NCBI RefSeq assembly: GCF_026210795.1
Contig: NC_089442.1
Coordinates: forward strand, 3,810,501 to 3,874,500
Source of the DNA: Rhizophagus irregularis
Lineage: Eukaryota > Glomeromycota > Glomeromycetes > Glomerales > Glomeraceae
Reading direction: 5' to 3'
Length of the DNA: 64,000 bases
In this document: positions 50,327 through 63,650 of the stretch, piece by piece
How positions within the stretch are numbered: the stretch's first letter is position 1
How the letters are laid out: each line of letters opens with the position of its first letter
Program-made: the position numbers and the translations under genes
Notes under the pieces: model-generated
What the model was told of the DNA's origin: nothing
What the model saw: the letters and a program-made list of their open reading frames with translations, nothing else
The model's database searches: none

Positions 50327-50734
50327 ACTAACTATATTTATGATCGAAATAAATCTGCATTCTTTGATGAAAAAATTAATCTTTTACATAAATATTGGAT
50401 AGTATTGGATTTGAATGTGATTTTATATATTCTTTAAAATTAAAATCATTATTATTAATGATTAAATATTAAATAATCTACAAGATTACCAATTTAATTC
50501 TAATCAAACTTGACTTTTTTTAATTGCATTAACAATTAAAGTAGTTAGATGATCTGTTTATTATTATATAAGAGGAATTACACATATCATGTAATATTCA
50601 GTTTTACTCCCCTCCCCTTTTTTGTCAGATTTAATAACCAATCAAATTATAATATTTATAAATTATATAATTTTATTAAGTATAACATAAGATTTTGGTT
50701 ATTCCCTTTCTCTCTTTAATAATCACGTAATATG

Positions 50735-50996
50735 TATGTGTAAGTAAGGTTGCTTGTCTAAACCTCTTCAAAATCCTACGATTAGTTTCGTCAAAATTTT
50801 ACTATAGATTTATTATAGTTTCGGCAGAGTTTCGGCAGTTTCGGCATTTATAATAAGTTTCGGCAGTTTCGCCTTTCTCCAAAGTTTTGCCAGTTTTTTA
50901 ATATAACTTTAATATAGTTTCGGCAGAATTTCGCTTTTCGGTGAAACGCCATCTTGCCTAAACCCCTAGGTTTCGGCAAGCAACTTTATGTGTAAG
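50735..50996. mobile_element. Small inverted-repeat element with 10 bp target duplication and TTTCGGC repeats
   Basis: TATGTGTAAG occurs at 50735-50744 and 50987-50996. Between them the left end (GGTTGCTTGTCTAAACCT, from 50748) and the right end (AGGTTTCGGCAAGCAACTT) are imperfect inverted copies. The interior repeats GTTTCGGCAG or variants at least five times. Non-coding, 242 bp. Confidence 0.7.
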
Positions 50997-51287
50997 CTTT
51001 TTAACCATCTTATATAATAAATAATAGATTAAAATTTCCAATTTTTTTTGAGTAAAATTGCGCACTAAAATTTTTTTAAAGAAATTAATATGATAATGAA
51101 AATCAAGTATTTAAAATAGCAATATTACTTAAAAATATAAATAAACTTAATAATTATGATTATTTGAAAAGAAAGTTAGTAGTAAATTAGATGTAATGAA
51201 AATAGATTTGCTATTTTACCATATGGAATTATTTGAAACTATATATAATACTTTTAATGTCAAAAGGGTTGATAAATAGGTAAATAG

Positions 51288-51433
51288 ATAAACTGTACTG
51301 TACAGTCAGCTAAACTGTACTGTACGAAAATATTTCAGCCAATCATAACTCATTATATACTTTTCAATTTTTTTTATTTATTATACAATAAAATCTGATT
51401 GGTAAGTTCTCACTTTATACAGTACAGTTTATA
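51288..51433. mobile_element. Short MITE with TAAACTGTACTGTA ends
   Basis: Left ATAAACTGTACTGTACAG (51288-51305) and right ATACAGTACAGTTTAT (51417-51432) are inverted copies about 145 bp apart. A further GCTAAACTGTACTGTAC lies just inside the left end. No coding frame; target duplication likely TA but not certain. Confidence 0.65.
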
Positions 51434-51755
51434 TATATACTTAATACAATATTTGTTACTACTGTCAACAGTAATGATTATAAACACAGGTCAAAAAGTA
51501 AAAAATTAGTCACCAATCGGTCACCAATCAGGTAGTTGATTGGTAATTGATTGATAACTGATTGGCATTTTCGCTAAATACCGGTACCACTCACCAATCA
51601 GGCAGTTTGCTAATAACTTCTGATCTAGTGATCAGAAAAGAATGAAATATAGCTCATTAGAATTGTCTCAACAAATGGTAGTAAAATCACATTTCTAGGA
51701 TTAATAGTTAATAAAAAATTAAATAAAATATAAATGACACAGGTCGAAAGCTGCC

Positions 51756-51807
51756 AAATCGGGGACCATCTAGGCTATCCTAAAAGGACCTAGATGGTTC
51801 CCGATTT
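51756..51807. repeat. Strong hairpin near the left transposon end
   Basis: AAATCGGGGACCATCTAGG (51756-51774) is followed after 14 bases by CCTAGATGGTTCCCGATTT (51789-51807), 18 of 19 pairs. A second hairpin, CTGGATATCAATA / TATTGTTATCCAG (51907-51919 with 51930-51942), follows. Confidence 0.8.
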
Positions 51808-52340
51808 TTTTTTATTTATTTTTGCAGGGTATCCCGATTGGTAACTATAAAATGGCCCCAATCGTTAACGAGCAAGGTTATCAATAAAGCACTTATTGTT
51901 TCGCAACTGGATATCAATAGGATTGACCTTATTGTTATCCAGTTTTTTTTTATTTACTTGTTAGATTAACCTATTGTTATCCATTTTTCTTATTTAGTAG
52001 CTTACCGATTGATGTCATTTTGGTTAATTGTATCAATATATACACATAATTTATTAAAAAGTAATCAATAGGCTATGTCCGATTGTAAAAAAATTAAAAT
52101 ATAGAATCAATACATGCTTTCGATTGATTCCAAATTGCTACTTAATTTATCAATTTATTATATCAGATTTATATTACACGCAATTAATTAATTTCAATTT
52201 ATTATATATTATTAGATGTAAAATTAGCAGAATATTTGTAATATTAATACTACTAGTCTAAAATATTCTATATGACTAATATATTATGATAGTTAATTAA
52301 ATTTTATATAAGAATTTTAATAAGAATTTTATTTGACATT

Positions 52341-52540
52341 ATGGATCCCTTCAACCGATTTTGGTTTCTTTCTTTTCGAACGGAAGGTCCCAATATCATC
52401 ATCATCATTATGGATCCCTTCAACCGATTTTGGTTTCTTTCTTGAATGGTGTCCAATATCATCATCATCATCATGGATCCCTTCAACTGATTTTGGTTTC
52501 TTTTCGAATGGCGTCCAATATCATCATTATCATCATTTTC
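52341..52540. repeat. Three-copy 64-68 bp repeat, decayed coding end of accessory gene
   Basis: ATGGATCCCTTCAACCGATT starts at 52341 and 52409, and the third at 52473 has one change (CAACTGATT). On the minus strand they read as KKPKSVEGIHDDDDDIG-type repeats in one frame. The first unit in the minus direction is one base short, so the frame breaks there. Confidence 0.7.
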
Positions 52541-52606
52541 TCTATATTTCTTTAACTCCCCAGTTATAATCGATAACATCGATCCTTTGTATCCAGATCT
52601 CGTTCA

Positions 52607-55117
52607 TCAAGGTGCGTTTAATGGAGCAGTTTCCTCCCCCGAAGCATACTGAGAATTATCAAAAACTCGTTTTCATCTTCTTTTATCAACTGTTTGCTGA
52701 TAAAATAATACATCCAAATAGTCTGTTAAAAATATTCGCAACTAAAAAATACAATCGGATTACCAAAGTAGCTAATATAATGTACAATTTGCAAAAATTA
52801 TTTACTTACGCAATCACTTCTCCACTTGATATCTCGTATTACAATACGATTTTCATTTGAATCATTGTCCGAATCAACTTCGGACTCCTCTGGACTATGA
52901 TACGCATTTTTTAACATGATTGGATTGAGTTCCGATTTCTTTAACTTTGAGACAATTGGATCGTCTAATAGTTGTAAATGTCTGACCATGTTCGTTCGTC
53001 TTATTCGTTTCTATTCTCTCAATTTTAATGGCTAATTAGCTAATGTTTCATAAATAAACTCAATTAATATAATATTACCTCGCTTTGGCGTGAATTGCCA
53101 TGTTTTCTTTTGGTTTCTTCAGTTTGCTCAGATTCGGATTTCTCTTTTTTTAATAAATCTTCTCTCTGATGGCGGTGGCGCTGATAAATCATTTCGTATA
53201 GCACACCTTCGCTAACCGGATACGCGTTGGTATCTAACACTTTGAATAGAACGGGAATGATTATTTTCGTTACCAGATCCTTCTGCGACTCGAAAGTTTT
53301 ATTGATGTCGAGTTGACTGCCTGTAGGCATACGTTTGATATTCCATTTTACTTCTCGCTAAATATTTATTTGTGTTAGTTTCATGCATTTAAATAAATTC
53401 GAAATTAAATAATTACTTACACGCAAGTTATCTTTCGTATCTTTTGGTAATTCTGTTAAACTGCGATAAGTTACTTTCCTGGGAGCAGCTGGACTAGAAT
53501 CAGTTTCCAATCCGCTAGTTCTCTCTGAACTTGAATTTGACCGAGAATCTGATCGAGAAGTTGATTGTTTTCGTTTTCTTTGCTTCTTAGACTTCTTAGA
53601 TTTGGATTTCTTTTTACTATTCTTGCTATTTTTTTTTGGTTGGTAGCTTTCATCATCGGAAGAAACGACCTCAGTAGATTTGTTAGAAGCTTTAATGGAA
53701 GATGATTTCTTAGACTTCTCGGGCATCTTGGATTTCTTTTTACTTGGTTGATGATCTTTTTTACCGCTTTCATCATCAGAAGAAACAAATCCAGTGGGTT
53801 TGTTCCTAAAATCTTTAATAAATAATGACAGATTTGATGTATCCTGGAGCTTTGGCGCTCGATTCTGGTACCTTTAATGTTTGCTCTTTACCGCTCTCAT
53901 AATCAGAAAAAACAAATTCAGTGGGTTTGTTCCTGGAATCTTTAATAAATAATGATGATGATGTATCCGGAGGTTTGATTTCAATTCTGATACCTTTGAT
54001 GTTTCTTTCTTTACCGCTCTCATAAAGAAAACAAATCCAGTGGGTTTGATGGAAGCTTTAATAAATAATGATGATGTATCCTGGAGTTTAGTATTTAATT
54101 CTGATATCTTTGATGTTTGCTCTTTTTTACCGCTCTCATTACTATCAGAAGAAACAATTTCAGTGGGTTTGTTTGAAGCTTTAATGGATGATGATGATGT
54201 ATCCTGAAGTTTGGCGCTCGGATTCGATATCTTTGATGTTTGCTCTTTACCGTTCTCATTACTATCAGAAGAAACAATTTCGGTAGGTATGTTGGAAGCT
54301 TTAATGGATGATGACGATGTATCCTGGAGTTTGGCGCTCGATTCTGACATCTTAGTTTGATTATCTTCATCATATTTCCTCAAACATTCTAGCAAATATG
54401 TCAACCGATTACTTTCACTAGTAGAAATTTTTGAATTTTTTTCTTAAATGAAAAATTGGTAAATAGTTAGTTCGTTAAATAGTTTCATATCGTTAACGAA
54501 TAGACGATAAAATTGTTGAGGTTTCGTTAAATACTCAGATAATCGTTAACAAAACAGACGAAAAAGCGTTAAATAGTTTTATATCGTTAACAAATAAACG
54601 ATAAAATTGTTGAGGTTTCGTTAAATACTCAGATAATCGTTAACAAACAGACGAAAAAGCAATGTTTTATATTCGTTAACAAAAAACGATAAAATTGTTG
54701 AAAGTTACGAAATACTGATAATCGTTAACAAACAGACGAAAAAGCGTTAAATAGTTTCATATCATTAACAAATAGACGATAAAATTGTTGAGATTTCGTC
54801 ATTATACATAAATATGTTACACAGTATAGAATGTAACCGATTGGAATGAAGCTTACCAATTTCGTAGGCATGCTCCAATTCAGGGGGCAAAACCAAATGG
54901 AATGGACCATTCTCCCTTTCATTGGTATGACTTTGGGTGCGACTTTTGGTATTTGATCTGGTTCGGCTTCTGCTGATTCGATGACTTTTAGTATGTGATC
55001 TGGTACGGCTTCTGCCAGTTCGATGATGTGATTTGGTTCGGCTTCTGCTGGTTCGATGACTTTTAGTATGTGATCTGGTATGGCTTTTACCTGACCTATC
55101 ACTTTTATGACTTTGTT
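52607..55117 (-). pseudogene. Decayed RS/K-rich accessory protein gene of the transposon
   Basis: Five exons can be chained on the minus strand: 54857-55117 (RS-rich: KSHTRSHTKSHRTSRSRTKS, then GPFHLVLPPELEHAYEI), 53421-54442, 53079-53357 (REVKWNIKRMPTGSQLDINK, then ESQKDLVTKIIIPVLFKVLD and YEMIYQRHRHQREDLLKK), 52810-53010 (MVRHLQLLDDPIVSKLKKSE, ending RIVIRDIKWRSDC) and 52607-52648 (YASGEETAPLNAP, stop). The second exon contains about six copies of a 37-39 residue repeat (SAKLQDTSSSSIKASNKPTE, then IVSSDSNESGKKEQTSKIS). Copies 3 to 5 carry small deletions and a stop that break the frame. A Lys/Ser-rich stretch follows. No first exon or start codon was found above 55117. Function unknown; the position opposite the transposase suggests a second transposon protein, perhaps nucleic-acid binding. 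Confidence 0.6.
54473..54803. repeat. Four tandem copies of about 85-95 bp in an intron of the accessory gene
   Basis: Units end with CAGACGAAAAAGC at 54567, 54660 and 54745; each includes AACGATAAAATTGTTGAGG-type sequence and GATAATCGTTAACAAACAGA. The array lies between the 54857 donor and the 54442 acceptor, so it makes the intron unusually long. Confidence 0.75.
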
Positions 55118-55321
55118 CTATAATAAAAGATTATTGTAAAAGAATTATTATTGTACCAAAAATTAACAAATGAGAAAAAGGGAGAATTTTTTTTTTAAGA
55201 AAAAATGGCCTTTTTATGTCTATTTTTTTGATCAGTTTTTCTTTTGATCAATTTAATTACTCCGGATATACTATTAAGCTAACTTATACTATTAAACTAT
55301 TTAACTTATACTATTAAACTA

Positions 55322-56372
55322 TTTTCCAAACAAATCGAGTGATATAATCTAATATTATACTTAACTTTGCCAATTTTAAAAAAAATCAGAATAATTAATC
55401 GAATACTATACTAATTTTACTTAATTTTCCAAACAAATCGAATGATATAATCTAATACTATACTGAATTTTGCTTAATTTTTCAAAAAAATCAGAATAAT
55501 TAATCGAATACTATACTAATTTTACTTAATTTTCCAAACAAATCGAATGATATAATCTAATACTATACTGAATTTTGCTTAATTTTTCAAAAAAATCGGA
55601 ATAATTAATCAAATACTATACTAATTTTACTTAATTTTCCAAACAAATCGAATGATATAATCTAATACTATACTGAATTTTGCTTAATTTTTCAAAAAAA
55701 TCAGAATAATTAATCGAATACTATACTAATTTTACTTAATTTTCCAAACAAATCGAATGATATAATCTAATACTATACTGAATTTTGCTTAATTTTTCAA
55801 AAAAATCAGAATAATTAATCGAATACTATACTAATTTTACTTAATTTTCCAAACAAATCGAATGATATAATCTAATACTATACTGAATTTTGCTTAATTT
55901 TTCAAAAAAATCAGAATAATTAATCGAATACTATACTAATTTTACTTAATTTTCCAAACAAATCGAATGATATAATCTAATACTATACTGAATTTTGCTT
56001 AATTTTTCAAAAAAATCAGAATAATTAATCTAATACTATACTAATTTTACTTAATTTTCCAAACAAATCGAATGATATAATCTAATACTATACTGAATTT
56101 TGCTTAATTTTTCAAAAAAATCGGAATAATTAATCGAATACTATACTAATTTTACTTAATTTTCCAAACAAATCGAATGATATAATCTAATACTATACTA
56201 AATTTTGCTTAATTTTGAATAAATCGGAATAATTAATCCAATACTATACTAAATTTTGCTTAATTTTCCAGACAAATCGAGTGATATAATCTAATACTAT
56301 TAAACTTTGCTTAATTTTGAATAAATCGGAATAATTAATCTAATACTATACTAAATTTACTTAATTAATATG
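55322..56372. repeat. 105-bp satellite array, about ten units, dimeric
   Basis: TTTTCCAAACAAATCGAATG-type unit starts occur at 55322, 55425, 55530, 55635, 55740, 55845, 55950, 56055, 56160 and 56264, an almost constant period of 105. Each unit is two related halves of about 53 and 52 bp: one with TTTTACTTAATTTTCCAAAC, the other with TTTTGCTTAATTTTTCAAAA, both ending near AATACTATACT. The central units are nearly identical and the outer ones diverged, typical of unequal exchange. It separates the two divergent transposon genes. Confidence 0.9.
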
Positions 56373-56508
56373 AATTTTATACCGATTGATTAACGTAACA
56401 GCGAACTTTCAGTATTAAGAAAAATTATTGAGTCAATTCTGATATAATGCGTACCGATTCTATCTTGAATAATAAGTTATAATCTGATATATTGCAATTG
56501 ATAATAAT

Positions 56509-59500
56509 ATGCCACCAAAACCTGCAATCAAACCCAGAAAAAAGGTCTCGTATCATTGTGATGAATGTAACGGAAAATTAGTTGATCTAAGAACAAAAGT
56601 AAAACACGAGGCTGAATATGAGCAAATGAATCGTTCATCAAGATCTACAAAGGTCAGTAAATCAGTATCAAAGCGAGTTCAAATAGACAATAATGATGAT
56701 GAAACTTCAAACGCATCCTCAAGTTCATCGGGTTCATCAAGTTCATCAACATCCGAATCACAAGAACCAATTCACATCCCGACTAAACGAGAAAGAAAAG
56801 AGAAATTTAAAGCAGTGGAATCGGCTGTTAATGATGTATTGATTGATGAACTTGATAACGAAGATACTGGCTTCAGCTCACCGATTGATGACGACCAAAG
56901 TGAAGACTTGAATGATGAAACTTCTGATGATGAACGATTCGCTGCTCCTGAATTAGAGGATTTTGGCGATAATGAAGATTTCATATGTGCTGATTCAGAT
57001 GTAGAATTTTCTGAATCTTGGATACTTATATGGATATTTAAGTATCAATCAAGATTCCGTCATTCCGAGGTTTCCATATCTTCCTTGATTGGATTCTTTA
57101 GCCAAGTATTGAAAGATGCTGATTCAAAAAGATTTGCTAATTTCCCATCCTCATCCTATTCTGCAAAGAAATTGCTACGCATTGACAAGGCAACAAAAAC
57201 ATATGCTGTGTGCCCGAAATGTAACAATCTGTATAAAATTAGGGAAATTTTAGGACAAAATGAACAAGTAACGGAAGCGTCACCAGAACTCAAGTGTAGT
57301 CGAGTTGAGTTTCCTAAACATCTGATGAAAAAGTATAGGGAGGTTTGCGGAGAGGAATTGCTAAAGAACGTTCCAGTAAATAATGGTTATATAAAGCGTC
57401 CTCGCATAGTATTCCCTATGCCAGATTTAAAAACACAAATTTTTACTATGTATTAACGTCCTAATTTCGAATAAAATTTAGCAAAATAGGCAAATCGGCA
57501 TGTTAACGGAGATATATTAGCAGACATTTATGATGGAGAGGTTTGGAAAACATTCAAGTCGGATGATACCCTATTTTTTACGCCCGAACTCGCTGATTCC
57601 AATCTAAGAATAATGATTAACCTCGATTGGTTTCAACCTTTCGATCGAACAATATATAGCACGGGTGTGATTTATGGGGTAATATGCAATCTTCCTCGTG
57701 AAATACGATTTAGACAGGAGAATATGCTAATCCTAGGACTACTTTCAGGACCGCACGAAGTACATGCAGATAACATAAATCATTTTTTATTGCCAATTAT
57801 TACGGAATTACTCGAATTTTGGACAGGAGTTATTATAAAAATGCCGAATAATCCAACTGGCAAAACAGTACGAATGGCAATTATCTGTTGCAGTAGCGAT
57901 ATTCCTGCTGCAAGAACATTATGCGGCCATATATCAGCGTTGGCAGCTTGTCATCGGTGCTGCAAATGAGCTAACAATGGTAATTTTAGTAATTTCAATG
58001 ATATGACTAATTGGTTTAAACCAAGGGATTTAGAAGATTTCTGACAAAATGCTATTGCATGGCGTAATTGCAAAACAAAAGATGAAAGAAATCAGTATGT
58101 TTCAAATCATATGTGCCGATTTTTGAAATTAGTCTAAATTAAGATTTTTATAAAAATTTAATATTTTAGTAAGATTAACATTACACAAATCTAAATTAAA
58201 TATGTGTTACATATTTACGTAACTCAGATTTAATAAAAAATAAAAAAATTTTTTTAATCAATATTCAAAAATAACGGTAATAACCACTTCTTTTTCCCCA
58301 TCACTCCCATCACTTTTCCATCATTTTTCTATTCACTTTTATTAAATATGACAAAAAAGTTTATAAGCAAATATAGCAGTTATTTTTAAGTGGTAAGTAA
58401 AAGAAAAAACTTAATATTTTATATACATAGATAAGACATATTTTTTCATAATTTTTAGCTTTAATTTATTGTTTTTTCTTTGTAAAAAATACATGCAAAT
58501 AAAAAATAATTATGATGTAAAATAGTTGTAAAATGAATAATAAGATATTCTTTTTTTTAAAATAACTAATTATATATTTGTTTTTTATCTTTTAAAATTA
58601 TTTCATTAGATTTATTCTACTAAAATCCTTAAATGGCAAATAAAATCTTTTAAATAAAGTAAAAGAATTTGGGATTCTTTTATGAAAGCATTTTTTGGTA
58701 AGAAATAAAATTTTCAGATCGGACTTTATGCAGGTGACAAAATCGTGCATTATTATTCCTGGAGATATGCTAACGTCATCATTTTACATTCATTTGAAAG
58801 CTGAGAATTTGCTCTATCGTAAGAATCAAAGATCAGGAAAATTGGATCACTGGATGAGGCGTAATTAACGATCAAAGTCAAATCAAATTTAAAAATTAAA
58901 AATAAATATATTAGACGTAATTATTCACAATCCAGTGATTCAATTCATTCGATTTTAGGCTTATTAGATAGACCTCAATTTTCTCTTTCAAATGAATATA
59001 ATTTCATTCGTGTAGCTTGCATCTACAGGTATTTAATAAATTTTTTTATATCAGATTTTATCAAATTTATAAAATTTTATATTAATAATATAATTGATGA
59101 TTCCTAAACATCTACATAAATTAAACGAATTATTTTAAATTTATTTTAAAGATAAAAGTTGGCATCACCTTAGGGAGCAAAGATCATTCAAATTGAATCA
59201 CTATATGTGAAGTAATTAATGATCAAATTTAGATAAAATTCAATAATATACTGAACGTGATTACTGAACAACTAGTGATTCAATTCACTTGATTTTAGAT
59301 TCATTAGATAGATCTCGATTTTCTCTTTCAAATGAATGTAAATTTATTTGTATAGCTTATTTCTACGAAGAATTATCAATGATTTTGTCATGAGAGTTAT
59401 ATTTGATCTTTTAAATTTTAATGATATCTTATATTAAAAAAAAATTAAAAATTATATAATTAATTAGTTTTTTTTGCATTATCTGGTATAAATTTATTAT

Positions 59501-61122
59501 TCTTATATAAATGATAATTTATATTTGCTTTAATAAAATTATTTTTGTGTAAAAAAATTAGATTCCAAGGATCGGCCCATATGAATCTTGTTAGGTGGAC
59601 AGAATTGTTAAGATTACCCTACTTCAATCCAATCAGACATTGCGTCGTAGACCCAGTGCATAATTTATTTCTCGGAATTGCCAGCTGGATTGTAAAACGT
59701 TTATGGATTGATGGAGGAAAAATATCTAAGGACGATTTTAAAATTATGGAAAAACGAGCGGAAGCTATTAAACTGCCAGCCGACATGGGTCGAATTCCAA
59801 ATAAAATATCGACAGGGGAAGGTTTTTTTGGATTCACTGCTGATCAGTGGAAAACCTTCATTTTGGTGTATTCAACACCAATAATGTGGGATTTGCTATC
59901 AGTGAATGATCGTGAAATTTTAGGAAATTTCGTAAGAGCCTGTTCCTTGTTGGTTTGCCGAATCATTAATACCAATAAAATAAATGAGGCCCATAACAGA
60001 TTACTCAAAATTGGTCAACTCATTGAAGAACATTATGGTGAAAATTTAATTACACCAAATATACACCTTTCTTTGCATATAGCCGAATGCTGTCGTGACT
60101 ATGGTCCAATATACTCTTTTTGGTGTTATTCGTTTGAACAAATGAATGGGATCTTAGGTAAATATTTTAATAATGAATGTCTCGGATTTTAATTAATATA
60201 TCATAAATTTGCCCTTTAGATTCCTATCCCAATTCAAAACGATATATTGAACCGGAATTGCTAAGAATTATTGTGCAGAATTGCAGAATCAATGATCTTA
60301 ATTCAATCGGGCAACCAGAAGCTTGTTAATGGTCTTAAGTTAATTGAACCTCGGCAAACAACTGGTTCATTAGCGGTATATGATGACCTCAGATTAGAAG
60401 AATTGGTGCAGTTCAAATGGATTTTTTGCAGCGAATTAGAAGATACGATCACTGGCAGTGAAATTTATCCGGACAATTTATTAAGTCCAATTAAAAACCG
60501 TGTTGATTTACCCGACAATTTGTATGAACAGTTGATTACTTATTATAATGAAGTTTATGGTGAAAAGATGGATGTTGAATTCGGCTCCATGTCAAATCTG
60601 ATCAGTCGAGGTTTACAGAATAATTCGTATGTAGTTGTTCAACCAATAATTAATCAATGCGGAAGAATTCAAGTGGCAGCTGAAATTTTTAGATCCGCGC
60701 TAGCACCTCGATATAAGAAAAATTCTTATATTTTAGCAAAATTTACCCAAGATAACGAATCGATTGAATTATACCCAGGAATGGTGCAATTTTATTTCGA
60801 GCATGTATTGCGACTTCCAACTATTGGTGAAAGAACGCACAAACTTGCTTACGTCAAATGGTACCTACCGGTTAATGATCATCGAATTAGATTTTACTGC
60901 CGAGCTGAACAGGATGATGACCGCAGTGTTAATATTGAACTCTGAAAACTTAATGAATTTTATGAAATGTCTCGTGATAGTATAATTCCAATTCATAATA
61001 TTTATAGCCGGTTTATTCCTACTAATTTTACAATCGGAACAAATAACAATAATAATAACAGCAGACGGAAGGCAAAAACTTATATGGCAGTAGTACCGAT
61101 TAATAGGAAGTTCCATTTATAA
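56509..61122 (+). pseudogene. Tnp2-like (EnSpm/CACTA superfamily) transposase, inactivated
   Basis: Start MPPKPAIKPRKKVSYHCDEC (zinc-binding-like CDEC...H). An acidic/Ser region follows, then WILIWIFKYQSRFRHSEVSI, YAVCPKCNNLYKI, LDADIYDG-like and INLDWFQPFDRTIYSTGVIY, and NLPREIRFRQENMLILGLLS. Later come CSSDIPAARTLCGHISALAA and LRLPYFNPIRHCVVDPVHNL followed by FLGIASWIVKRLW. These are hallmarks of Tnp2-type transposases. The copy is dead: in-frame stops at 57454, 57469 and 57484, at 57967, at about 58042 and near 60940. A frame shift lies near 60310, and a 1.46 kb insertion at 58114. An intron at about 60155-60220 is plausible. The expected C-terminus continues past the last stop to 61122 (YMAVVPINRKFHL-like). 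Confidence 0.85.
58114..59577. mobile_element. 1.46 kb element nested in the transposase gene
   Basis: The transposase reading is split here. CATATG stands on both sides (58108-58113 and 59578-59583), consistent with a target duplication. The ends are weak inverted repeats (TGCCGAT at the left; ATCGGCC at the right). Leaving out the insert and one CATATG brings the two transposase parts into the same frame. Inside are two direct copies of a roughly 190 bp block (58838-59030 and 59178-59370) sharing GATTTTAGGCTTATTAGATA-like and TTTTCTCTTTCAAATGAAT sequence. No coding frame. Confidence 0.7.
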
Positions 61123-61326
61123 TTTCTATTATTAATAAATCGTAATAAATCAGTTATTTTATTTTATACTTGCCAAGTATACTTAGTGAATATTCATATC
61201 AAATGTATTGTCAAATATTATAAATTTGGTAAAATAATGTAATATATATGTATGGTATTATAGACCAACGGATTAATTTATAGCTACCAATCGGTTTATT
61301 CCTATTAGATTCAGTTTCACATATAG

Positions 61327-61881
61327 TAATAAACTAAATATGGGTATCGAAACTCCTAAGAGCATTTCCGAACGTTTCTTTGCGTTTTGCATATACGAAT
61401 CGAAACTCAACCCATAACCTAAACTTCTACCGAAACTCGAAACAACTTCTGATATTCCGAAACCTATCCCGATATCCCGAAACCAGCATTACCCAATTAA
61501 ATTGCTTAAACAACTGTGCCATACGTCATATTGACGAAATCACGTGCTCAATAATCATCAAGAAATTCATAATACCCGACGCTATGTGAGGATTGAGGAA
61601 TATAATGGAGTGAACAAATTCTACCCTAATAGTTATATAGTTAATTTGGATTTAATGTTAGGAATAATTTAATAGTGAACAAACTATTAGAAATTGAACT
61701 TGATACCTTTATTTAAGATTTACTGTAAGGAAAACTAATAAAAATTTTGGGCATATTTCGGTTTCAGGTCGGGATTCGGGAATTGGAAAAATATATGCAT
61801 TTCCGAAACTCTATTTCGTATATACCGAAACCGATAGAGTTTCGGGAAGTTTCGGTTTCGTTACCCATGTTTATAATAAAC
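61327..61881. mobile_element. 539 bp element with 8 bp target duplication
   Basis: TAATAAAC at 61327-61334 and 61874-61881 directly flanks inverted ends TAAATATGGGTATCGAAACT (from 61335) and the complement of TAAACATGGGTAACGAAACC (ending 61873), 16 of the first 19 positions equal or close. The interior is rich in CCGAAAC/GTTTCGG copies. Eight-bp duplications are typical of hAT elements and possible for Mutator-like ones. It lies inside the 10.9 kb transposon and so is younger. Confidence 0.75.
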
Positions 61882-62354
61882 CAAATGATGACTATTGAAT
61901 AATTACCTAATTTATTTAAATTAATAAATCCTTTCAATCCGGATAGCCTAAATTTTTACATAGTTATCAATCGGGTATATGCCCTATTGATTACTAATTT
62001 TTGGCTAACCTATTAGTTTAATAGTTACCAATAGGGTATATGCCCGATTTTTTAGCTTTCGACCTGTGTGATGTATTTTTATTTTTATATTTTACTTAAT
62101 TTCTCACCAAGTATTAATCCTAAAAATGCGATTTTACTACCATTAGATTCACCTTGTTAAGACGATTCCAATGAGATATATTTCATCCTTTTCTGATTAC
62201 TAAATCAAAAGTTAGCAAACTGCCTGATTGGTGACGGTATTTGGCGAAAATGCCAATTAGTCACCAATTAGTCACCAACCAGTTACCAATTAGCTACCTG
62301 ATTGGTGACCGATTGGTGACTAATTGATGCCTGATTTTTCACTTTTTGACCTGT

Positions 62355-63170
62355 AAAACCTAACATTAGTAGATAGGTCAAGTTGTTCAAAAATGTAATC
62401 TGATCAAAAATTCTTGCCCAACATCTCATTTATAGATTGAGATAATGCATAATTTATAAGCTGAATGTGATGTTTAAGGTCTTATTAGCAGATTTACTAT
62501 AATAACATATAATAATGCCAGTAATAATAACTACTCTTTATTAAAAATTAGGACTTTTAATATTGTTAGTGTTACCTAATACTGAGTTTTTTGTAACCAC
62601 TATCTCAACAACAGAGAATCAATTCATGTAAATCCTAATTCAAGATGTTGTTTAATTCAAGTGTGTGCAGTTGGAACAGGTATTAATAATCAATCTGCAA
62701 GAACCACTTACATTAGTCATTGCCCACAAATTCTAGGTATCTAACTGGAATATATATTTTTACAATTGAGCCTACAGAGAATGCAGATTGCAGAGTATAA
62801 TTTACTGGTTAATACTATATAATTATATTAATTTTATGCAATACTACAAAACTCTATAGTATAGTAACAAAATATAGTGTTTTAATTATTTTATGGTTTG
62901 TGCAGAGTTTACTTCTTCATAATTGAATTTAAATCATCTGAAATTTGACCACCAATATTACAGTATAATTAATATTTATAAATCTGTAAAAAAAATTTTC
63001 AAGTATTTCAAGAACAGTATTTTTGGATATATTCTTGGATATTTTAATATTTGTTATACTGTATAATGTGATATTTATGTATTTGAAAATTTGAGATGTA
63101 TACTCAGCAAAAAATACTGTCAAATCAAATCATGCTATACTGAACTCAGCTGACACTATACTAAACTCAG
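62355..63170. other. AT-rich region right of the transposon, nothing recognised
   Basis: No coding signal. A short direct repeat TATACT(G/A)AACTCAGCT is seen at 63136-63172. Confidence 0.5.
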
Positions 63171-63174
63171 CTAG

Positions 63175-63650
63175 GCTTTTCATTTCGCCGAAACCCATCT
63201 TATTGAATGGATATTTCGTCGAATGGATATTTTGCCGAATGATCATTTCAATGTTTCACTGAATAATTATTTATTCCATTTGGTTATTTTATTGTTTTAT
63301 ACTAAAATAGTCATAAAGAATTTTTTCTAGAAAAATTAAATTTATCTCGTATTAATCTTTTTTTAACTTACTTTTTCGTGAATAAATGTTTTCAGGATTA
63401 TAAAATTATTTATTGCTTAGCAATTAATATCAGTTACTTGAATGTTAAAGTGATAATATCCTGGAAAAAAAAAAAGAAATCTAAAAATAATTTATTTCAT
63501 TACGCGATGAATATTTTTCATAAAATGTTAATCGCTACCATCTTCGGCGAAATGGGCTATTCAGTGAAATGGATTCGATAAAATGCACTTTCGGCGAAAC
63601 ATTCTTTCGACGAAATGGCTTCGGTGAAATGGATTTCAGAGAAATGTACC
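63175..63650. repeat. Inverted array of CATTTCGNCGAA motifs
   Basis: The left part (63179-63245) holds CATTTCGCCGAAACCCATC, ATATTTCGTCGAATGG and TTTTGCCGAATGATC. The right part (63540-63640) holds the complementary forms TTCGGCGAAATGG, TTTCGGCGAAACATTC, TTTCGACGAAATGG and TTCGGTGAAATGG. The halves are in opposite orientation around a 290 bp AT-rich centre. Probably a non-autonomous inverted-repeat element; exact ends not found. Confidence 0.55.

Follow-up and report, generated by a model that had tools for sequence, protein, structure and literature searches.

Which ends and which genes belong to a large transposon-like structure in the genome of Rhizophagus irregularis, and what might its second gene do? 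CACTA elements are textbook two-protein transposons, and the structure, located in a window of 64,000 nucleotides (C14:3810501-3874500), had been described in a first-pass annotation as one large transposon with long inverted ends, a Tnp2-like transposase relic on the plus strand, a multi-exon gene rich in arginine/serine (RS) and lysine (K) on the minus strand, and a tandem array between them. Our analyses show that the window copy is an ordinary decayed EnSpm/CACTA element nested in a miniature inverted-repeat transposable element (MITE). On balance, it is probable that the accessory gene of this decayed copy in the centre of the MITE encodes a dedicated DNA-binding or assembly partner of the transposase, comparable to TnpA. 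The genome searched comprised 146,748,485 bases in 32 contigs, and the search counts are lower bounds, since each genome search scored part of its candidate places.

Borders of the element and its host MITE

The inverted arms at 51486-62354 are present as annotated, but they are the two halves of a MITE, and the genes sit in an element nested between them:

51485-51734, no strand: left half of a palindromic MITE of ~536 bp (CACAGGTCAAAAAGT...), interrupted by the large element (joined-site alignment)
51735-51737, no strand: target duplication TGA, left
51738-62068, no strand: the EnSpm/CACTA element itself, with CAC..GTG ends and CACAGGTCGAAAGCT(G/A) as terminal inverted repeat, borders shared with close copies
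62069-62071, no strand: target duplication TGA, right
62072-62354, no strand: right half of the ~536-bp palindromic MITE (joined-site alignment)

The nested element has the ends CACAGGTCGAAAGCT...AGCTTTCGACCTGTG, with its own 15-bp inverted repeat and 3-bp duplication. Its borders were tested by comparing window positions 50486-63354 by blastn with five close copies of the large element (C23a, C13, C23b, C5 and C6), considering rows of at least 60 bp. The left border, 51737/51738, is common to four of the five (C23a, C23b, C5 and C6), C13 beginning at 52240, and the right border, at ~62068, is common to three (C23a, C13 and C23b), C5 and C6 stopping earlier. Two copies, C23a (duplication TAA) and C23b (duplication ATT), show both ends, identical to those of the window element. 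Outside the element, 246 bp at 50743-50988 match the flank of C23a at 95% and are, by their place, an unrelated dispersed repeat.

Joined with a single TGA, the two flanks make a 536-base sequence that aligns from one end to the other with 14 of 16 MITE copies drawn from the stronger matches of the left-arm search, and none of the 16 copies shown in this joined-flank alignment has an insertion at the junction. The left arm has at least 143 listed matches genome-wide (40 of 429 candidates scored), by eye mostly back-to-back halves, and in 12 of the 16 MITE copies identical 3-bp flanks, read by eye, adjoin CAC..GTG ends. The match of the empty site together with the TGA duplication implies that the large element jumped into the centre of the palindromic MITE. 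This host MITE, whose first eight bases are identical to those of the large element, is a related, non-autonomous palindromic element. The earlier proposal of a single large transposon whose long terminal repeats are the palindromic arms, which would make the ~280-bp arms the ends of the gene-bearing element, retains next to no credence: the arms are inverted and complementary (73-100% in blocks, starting at CACAGGTC), but none of the five close copies carries them, the joined arms match the free-standing MITE through the junction in all 16 copies shown, and the inner ends carry their own duplication.

The MITE types are named by their termini, CACAGGTC and CACTAGTC. Genome-wide there are 818 occurrences of the sequence CACAGGTCRAAA versus 16 of its reversed control. 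Many of the 100 listed places are arranged as close inverted pairs (e.g., C1:5957419-5957493 and C1:2687940-2688048), about 75 to 530 bp apart, which suggests several MITE size classes sharing ends.

The absence of a CACTA start had led the first-pass annotation to suggest an undescribed lineage, a suggestion that the real ends do not sustain: these read CAC..GTG and adjoin a 3-bp duplication, and CACTAGTCGAAA is the start of sister elements in the R. irregularis genome. CAC..GTG inverted termini are found in the window element and in C23a, C23b, C31, C12a, C12b, C11b and C12_786, and the duplications in eight elements are TGA, TAA, ATT, TTA, ATA, ACG, CAC and ACC. Sister families have CACTAGTCGAAAT or CACTGGTCGAA ends, likewise with 3-bp duplications. 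A literal CACTA start is absent from the window family, which begins CACAG, and present at both ends of C12_786 and at one end of C12b. Since excerpts of Kojima 2025 (PMC12730594) describe CAC..GTG ends with a 3-bp duplication as consistent with EnSpm, the CACAG start is not disqualifying. The Tnp2/Transposase_21 transposase, a class feature of EnSpm/CACTA, is found in the window element and in its relative C16. The termini of Plavaka, given in the same excerpts as TGT..ACA (2-bp duplication) or CATCA..TGATG (2-3 bp), differ from the ends observed here.

The accessory gene and its linkage to the transposase

The element contains the following genes, array and insertions:

52600-55117, minus strand: accessory gene, broken, exon limits approximate, with an RS-rich exon at ~54859-55117 and acidic/K-rich repeats at 53430-54443
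~53079-53357, minus strand: accessory domain A exon
~52810-53009, minus strand: accessory domain B exon
~52600-52770, minus strand: accessory C-terminal exon (presumed last exon), with in-frame stops
55321-56366, no strand: 105-bp array between the divergent genes, a dimer of 52/53-bp units, 10 copies, 96% matches
56509-61120, plus strand: transposase gene, broken, limits approximate, with an N-terminal exon at ~56509-57452 and Transposase_21 at 57490-57969
59584-60192 and 60265-60945, plus strand: further parts of the transposase, the gene being interrupted by the insertion at 58111-59583
58111-59583, no strand: 1.47-kb insertion in the transposase gene, its site uninterrupted in four of five close copies
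61352-61873, no strand: ~0.5-kb insertion with inverted ends ATGGGTA(T/A)CGAAAC, uninterrupted in C13, C23a and C23b (alignments spanning the site)

Both genes of the first-pass annotation, and the array between them, are thus present. The exon at 57490-57969 matches Transposase_21 (PF02992) above the Pfam cut-off (E 1.5e-14), and the relative C16 has the same domain (E 1.1e-10). The window copy is dead, with its transposase split by the 1.47-kb insertion, a second insertion of ~0.5 kb, and stops in the presumed last accessory exon.

All six transposase-exon copies at 88-100% identity have the accessory gene upstream and divergent, and the six best accessory exon matches (93-100%) are precisely those beside these six transposases. 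This layout and linkage support the earlier idea of an EnSpm-like transposon owning a second, divergent gene; copies in the same divergent layout, which the annotation had proposed to look for, were found with both genes in six of six cases at 88% or more, but short one-gene fragments exist as well. More widely, transposase exon 59518-60192 retrieved relatives down to 53% identity (150 of 617 candidates scored) and accessory exon 53064-53357 at least 91 matches (150 of 232). Additional searches used the transposase C-terminus (150 of 408 scored) and a second accessory query (150 of 311), and from one further search (150 of 393) 100 of 155 matches were carried forward, the omitted rest being mostly short repeated groups. 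Merging the two accessory searches gave 216 loci, 143 of them no more than 12 kb from a scored transposase match: 117 upstream and divergent, 17 downstream on the same strand, six downstream on the opposite strand and three upstream on the same strand. Random placement (300 draws, contigs outside the control's table being taken as ~4.5 Mb long) linked a mean of 8.2 loci (maximum 16), and a mean of 2.0 (maximum 7) in the upstream-divergent arrangement.

When loci were chosen by their transposase, that is, picked from the matches to exon 59518-60192 for long open transposase frames, an accessory homologue was found at 11 of 11, ten times divergent upstream and once (C2_786) downstream on the same strand. 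These 11 loci represent about nine families, given the near-identical pairs C9_796/C28_760 and C11_821/C20_813. The accessory gene of C2_786 was missed at first and found once 8.4 kb more sequence was added; that of C11b was recognised by eye and then built into profile A1, so that its own profile match is by construction. Six further loci (C31, C12a, C11a, C16, C15 and C12b) had been fetched via prior accessory matches and hence stand outside the 11. Two of these, C31 and C12a, are 97.6% identical relatives with three genes; they measure 13.8 and 13.9 kb and have the duplications TTA and ATA, respectively. One accessory gene is divergent, and a second, with 39% identity to the window exon, lies downstream of the transposase on the same strand. 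The two accessory paralogues of C31 are 32% identical over exon A and occupy separate branches of the accessory tree; the pair is therefore not a recent duplication.

The accessory family appears to have diversified together with the transposon lineage. Across 14 families, transposase and accessory distances are correlated (Mantel r 0.763 with C31 paralogue A and 0.75 with paralogue B; p 2e-4, the lowest value that 5000 permutations allow), and both trees have five sister groups in common (C12_786 with C9_796, C2_786 with C3_812, C11b with C28_748, C27_854 with C26_746, and C15 with C31 paralogue A). The trees disagree in that only the accessory tree groups C12b with C11_821 (support 0.18) and that C16 and the window family are placed differently. 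When families are compared with one another, the ratio of nonsynonymous to synonymous differences per site (pN/pS) lies at 0.26-0.54 for all 20 accessory exon pairs and at 0.21-0.30 for all six transposase pairs, values of which only the direction is meaningful because pS is mostly near saturation. These comparisons, made between families only, indicate that the accessory protein is under protein-level constraint at that scale.

The cores of seven accessory genes align with ten invariant columns and the motifs HRHxR, NSRR, YHSPExSE and WRS, to which APxWTxSGY is added in those cores whose alignment included its exon. The N-termini are variable. A marked RS-rich run is present in four of 15 accessory genes tested, with 25 (C3_812), 16 (C2_786), 12 (window copy) and 9 (C11b) RS/SR dipeptides in the best 50 residues, and the other 11 have 2 to 6; the 1215 open reading frames of the same loci have a mean of 0.9, and all seven that reach 10 are accessory frames. 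By eye, the N-termini of C31B and C12b look coiled-coil-like. Within the accessory gene region of the window copy, tandem repeats of 123 bp (a multiple of three) lie at 53760-54347 and of 63-69 bp at 52337-52537. A Pfam match to DYN_lid on the C12b core (E 0.0014, below the cut-off, in one of five cores scanned) was taken as chance, and a single PDB profile match (E 0.31) was rejected.

The central array is shorter in four of the five close copies, and C6 has ~120 bp of the 52/53-bp unit. We rejected such arrays as a general feature of the lineage, as among the loci checked only the window family and the C9_796/C28_760 family have one, the latter being built of an unrelated 89-bp unit (L036:4533-6199; C28:91500-101800, L045+L017). 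The C6 copy (L005/L006) has several other tandem arrays (242, 263 and 52-104 bp) beside or inside it, and a close transposase C-terminal piece lies ~17 kb from it, at C6:4386039. At the place of the 1.47-kb insertion, C6 has other, unmatched sequence of ~2.6 kb. That insertion has short inverted ends, CATATG(T/G)GCCGAT, with no clear target duplication in comparison with uninterrupted copies. The ~0.5-kb insertion is flanked by the near-repeats TAATAAAC(T/C)AA and may belong to a further MITE family, one with a long duplication.

Candidate roles for the accessory protein

We infer that a TnpA-like partner role best explains these data. The Tnp2-type transposase would cleave the CAC..GTG ends. 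The accessory protein would recognise family-specific subterminal motifs, as TnpA does for maize Spm/En, and bring the ends together or regulate the shared intergenic promoter. Both proteins together might also mobilise the CACAGGTC MITEs in trans, and the variable RS-rich, acidic or coiled-coil-like N-termini may serve oligomerisation or nuclear targeting. Candidate subterminal motifs exist in some relatives: CAATCGG occurs 17 times (C31) and 21 times (C12a) in the terminal 2 x 400 bp versus 7 and 8 times in the rest, and AAATCGG 11 versus 4 times in C12_786. In the 7-mer test, no random interior sample was as high in any of the three (0 of 471 for C31, 0 of 475 for C12a and 0 of 434 for C12_786).

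The likeness to TnpA lies in an element-encoded gene co-inherited with its transposase; no convincing homology to a known family was found in Pfam, NCBIfam or PDB. Maize Spm/En and soybean Tgmt* (PMC2613891, PMC1636069), which pair a TnpD-like transposase with a TnpA-like DNA-binding protein, likewise combine a Tnp2/Transposase_21 transposase, CAC-type inverted termini, a 3-bp duplication, a second element-encoded protein and family-specific subterminal motifs, candidates for which occur here in some relatives. They differ in producing the second protein by alternative splicing of one unit, whereas here it has a separate, usually divergent gene, without recognised Pfam similarity, with RS-rich N-termini in some families and two paralogues in some elements. 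The fungal EnSpm elements in the excerpts of Kojima 2025 (PMC12730594) share fungal hosts, CAC..GTG termini, 3-bp duplications and an extra gene, but the extra gene described there is a TET/JBP dioxygenase, a protein family unrelated to ours. Plavaka, related to CMC and present in the same host according to passages of PMC11075540, has a transposase of a related superfamily but, as given in PMC12730594, the termini TGT..ACA or CATCA..TGATG instead of CACAGG..CCTGTG with 3 bp. PIF/Harbinger elements also have two genes, with a DNA-binding or second protein (Myb/SANT in Nuwa, PMC12730594), and mobilise MITEs (PMC2836001). Their transposase belongs to a different superfamily, and the accessory protein has no Myb/SANT match.

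Several results weigh against the partner reading. Besides the window, a script recovered ends flanked by 3-bp duplications in seven of 22 fetched loci, many stretches falling short of the ends. Subterminal 7-mer arrays are moderate in C11b and weak in C12b (14 of 442 and 41 of 434 random samples as high) and not significant in the window element, C23a, C23b and C2_786 (183 of 456, 120 of 447, 275 of 456 and 155 of 472). Inside the window family, low pairwise pN/pS values (0.40 for accessory exon A and 0.39 for exon B) had pointed to selection, an interpretation dropped when changes were counted once each: no significant deficit appeared in any of seven stretches, and the changes resemble neutral decay. 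Searches of Pfam, NCBIfam (a prokaryote library and thus a weak test) and PDB sequences gave no convincing match for the accessory family, and a single-sequence AlphaFold model of domain A, with two helices, was too poor for use (predicted local distance difference test score 66.9, predicted template modelling score 0.30). The two genes also occur apart, as transposase C-terminal fragments with no listed accessory match (C8:5294754 and C23:3701825) and accessory fragments with no transposase match (C22:2800690, C10:2727069 and C9:1431396). An accessory gene mainly outside such elements had been named in advance as contrary evidence; the 143 linked loci speak against that situation, but 73 of the 216 have no scored transposase nearby.

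These 73 loci favour a passenger gene, captured from the host or from another element and without a role, as does the inspection of four of them, three lacking a transposase within the 6.5-7 kb read and one having a divergent transposase fragment. We nevertheless regard a passenger as highly improbable, given that mostly the same divergent layout recurs in families whose transposases share 53-72% identity with that of the window, and that co-divergence and between-family constraint speak against it. Regulation is easier to conceive: the protein might act as a regulator or anti-silencing factor on the promoter and terminal region of the element, outside the transposition complex. The divergent genes share one intergenic region, which contains arrays in two families, and maize TnpA is reported, in an excerpt of PMC1636069, to reactivate a methylated promoter. 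Yet the presence of the gene at each relative examined and its co-divergence with the transposase are at least equally compatible with an obligate partner, and a Pfam scan recognised no chromatin or methylation domain, so that we hold this role unlikely.

The RS runs, far above the mean of open reading frames, and the apparent multi-exon structure of accessory genes could instead point to an action on RNA, in which the protein would control how intron-containing transcripts of the element are spliced or exported. This is improbable, as the other 11 accessory genes are poor in RS/SR dipeptides and the conserved core (domains A and B) has no Pfam RNA-binding domain. A bolder proposal, also rather improbable, is an undescribed class of transposon-encoded proteins that act as obligate partners of a large EnSpm lineage, RS-tailed in several families and with a two-paralogue version in some elements, linking transposition to RNA processing or nuclear-body targeting. 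No publication describing the accessory family was found in the open-licence literature, Repbase lying outside that search.

Following the second protein of CACTA transposons

According to PMC8647823 and PMC11075540, Plavaka elements are prevalent in R. irregularis, and CMC-EnSpm elements are among those recently expanded or expressed. The second proteins of CACTA elements are reportedly little alike, En-1 TNPA and Tam1 TNP1 sharing little similarity in the account excerpted from PMC2613891, which makes their history hard to follow. Here, a single genome offers many families in which the second protein is recognisable, has a gene of its own and follows the transposase in its divergence. Since the accessory family went unrecognised by Pfam and NCBIfam models, the gene sets of arbuscular mycorrhizal fungi may hold unrecognised transposon genes of this kind. 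The family-specific ends, together with MITEs sharing termini, allow testing which protein reads which terminal motif.

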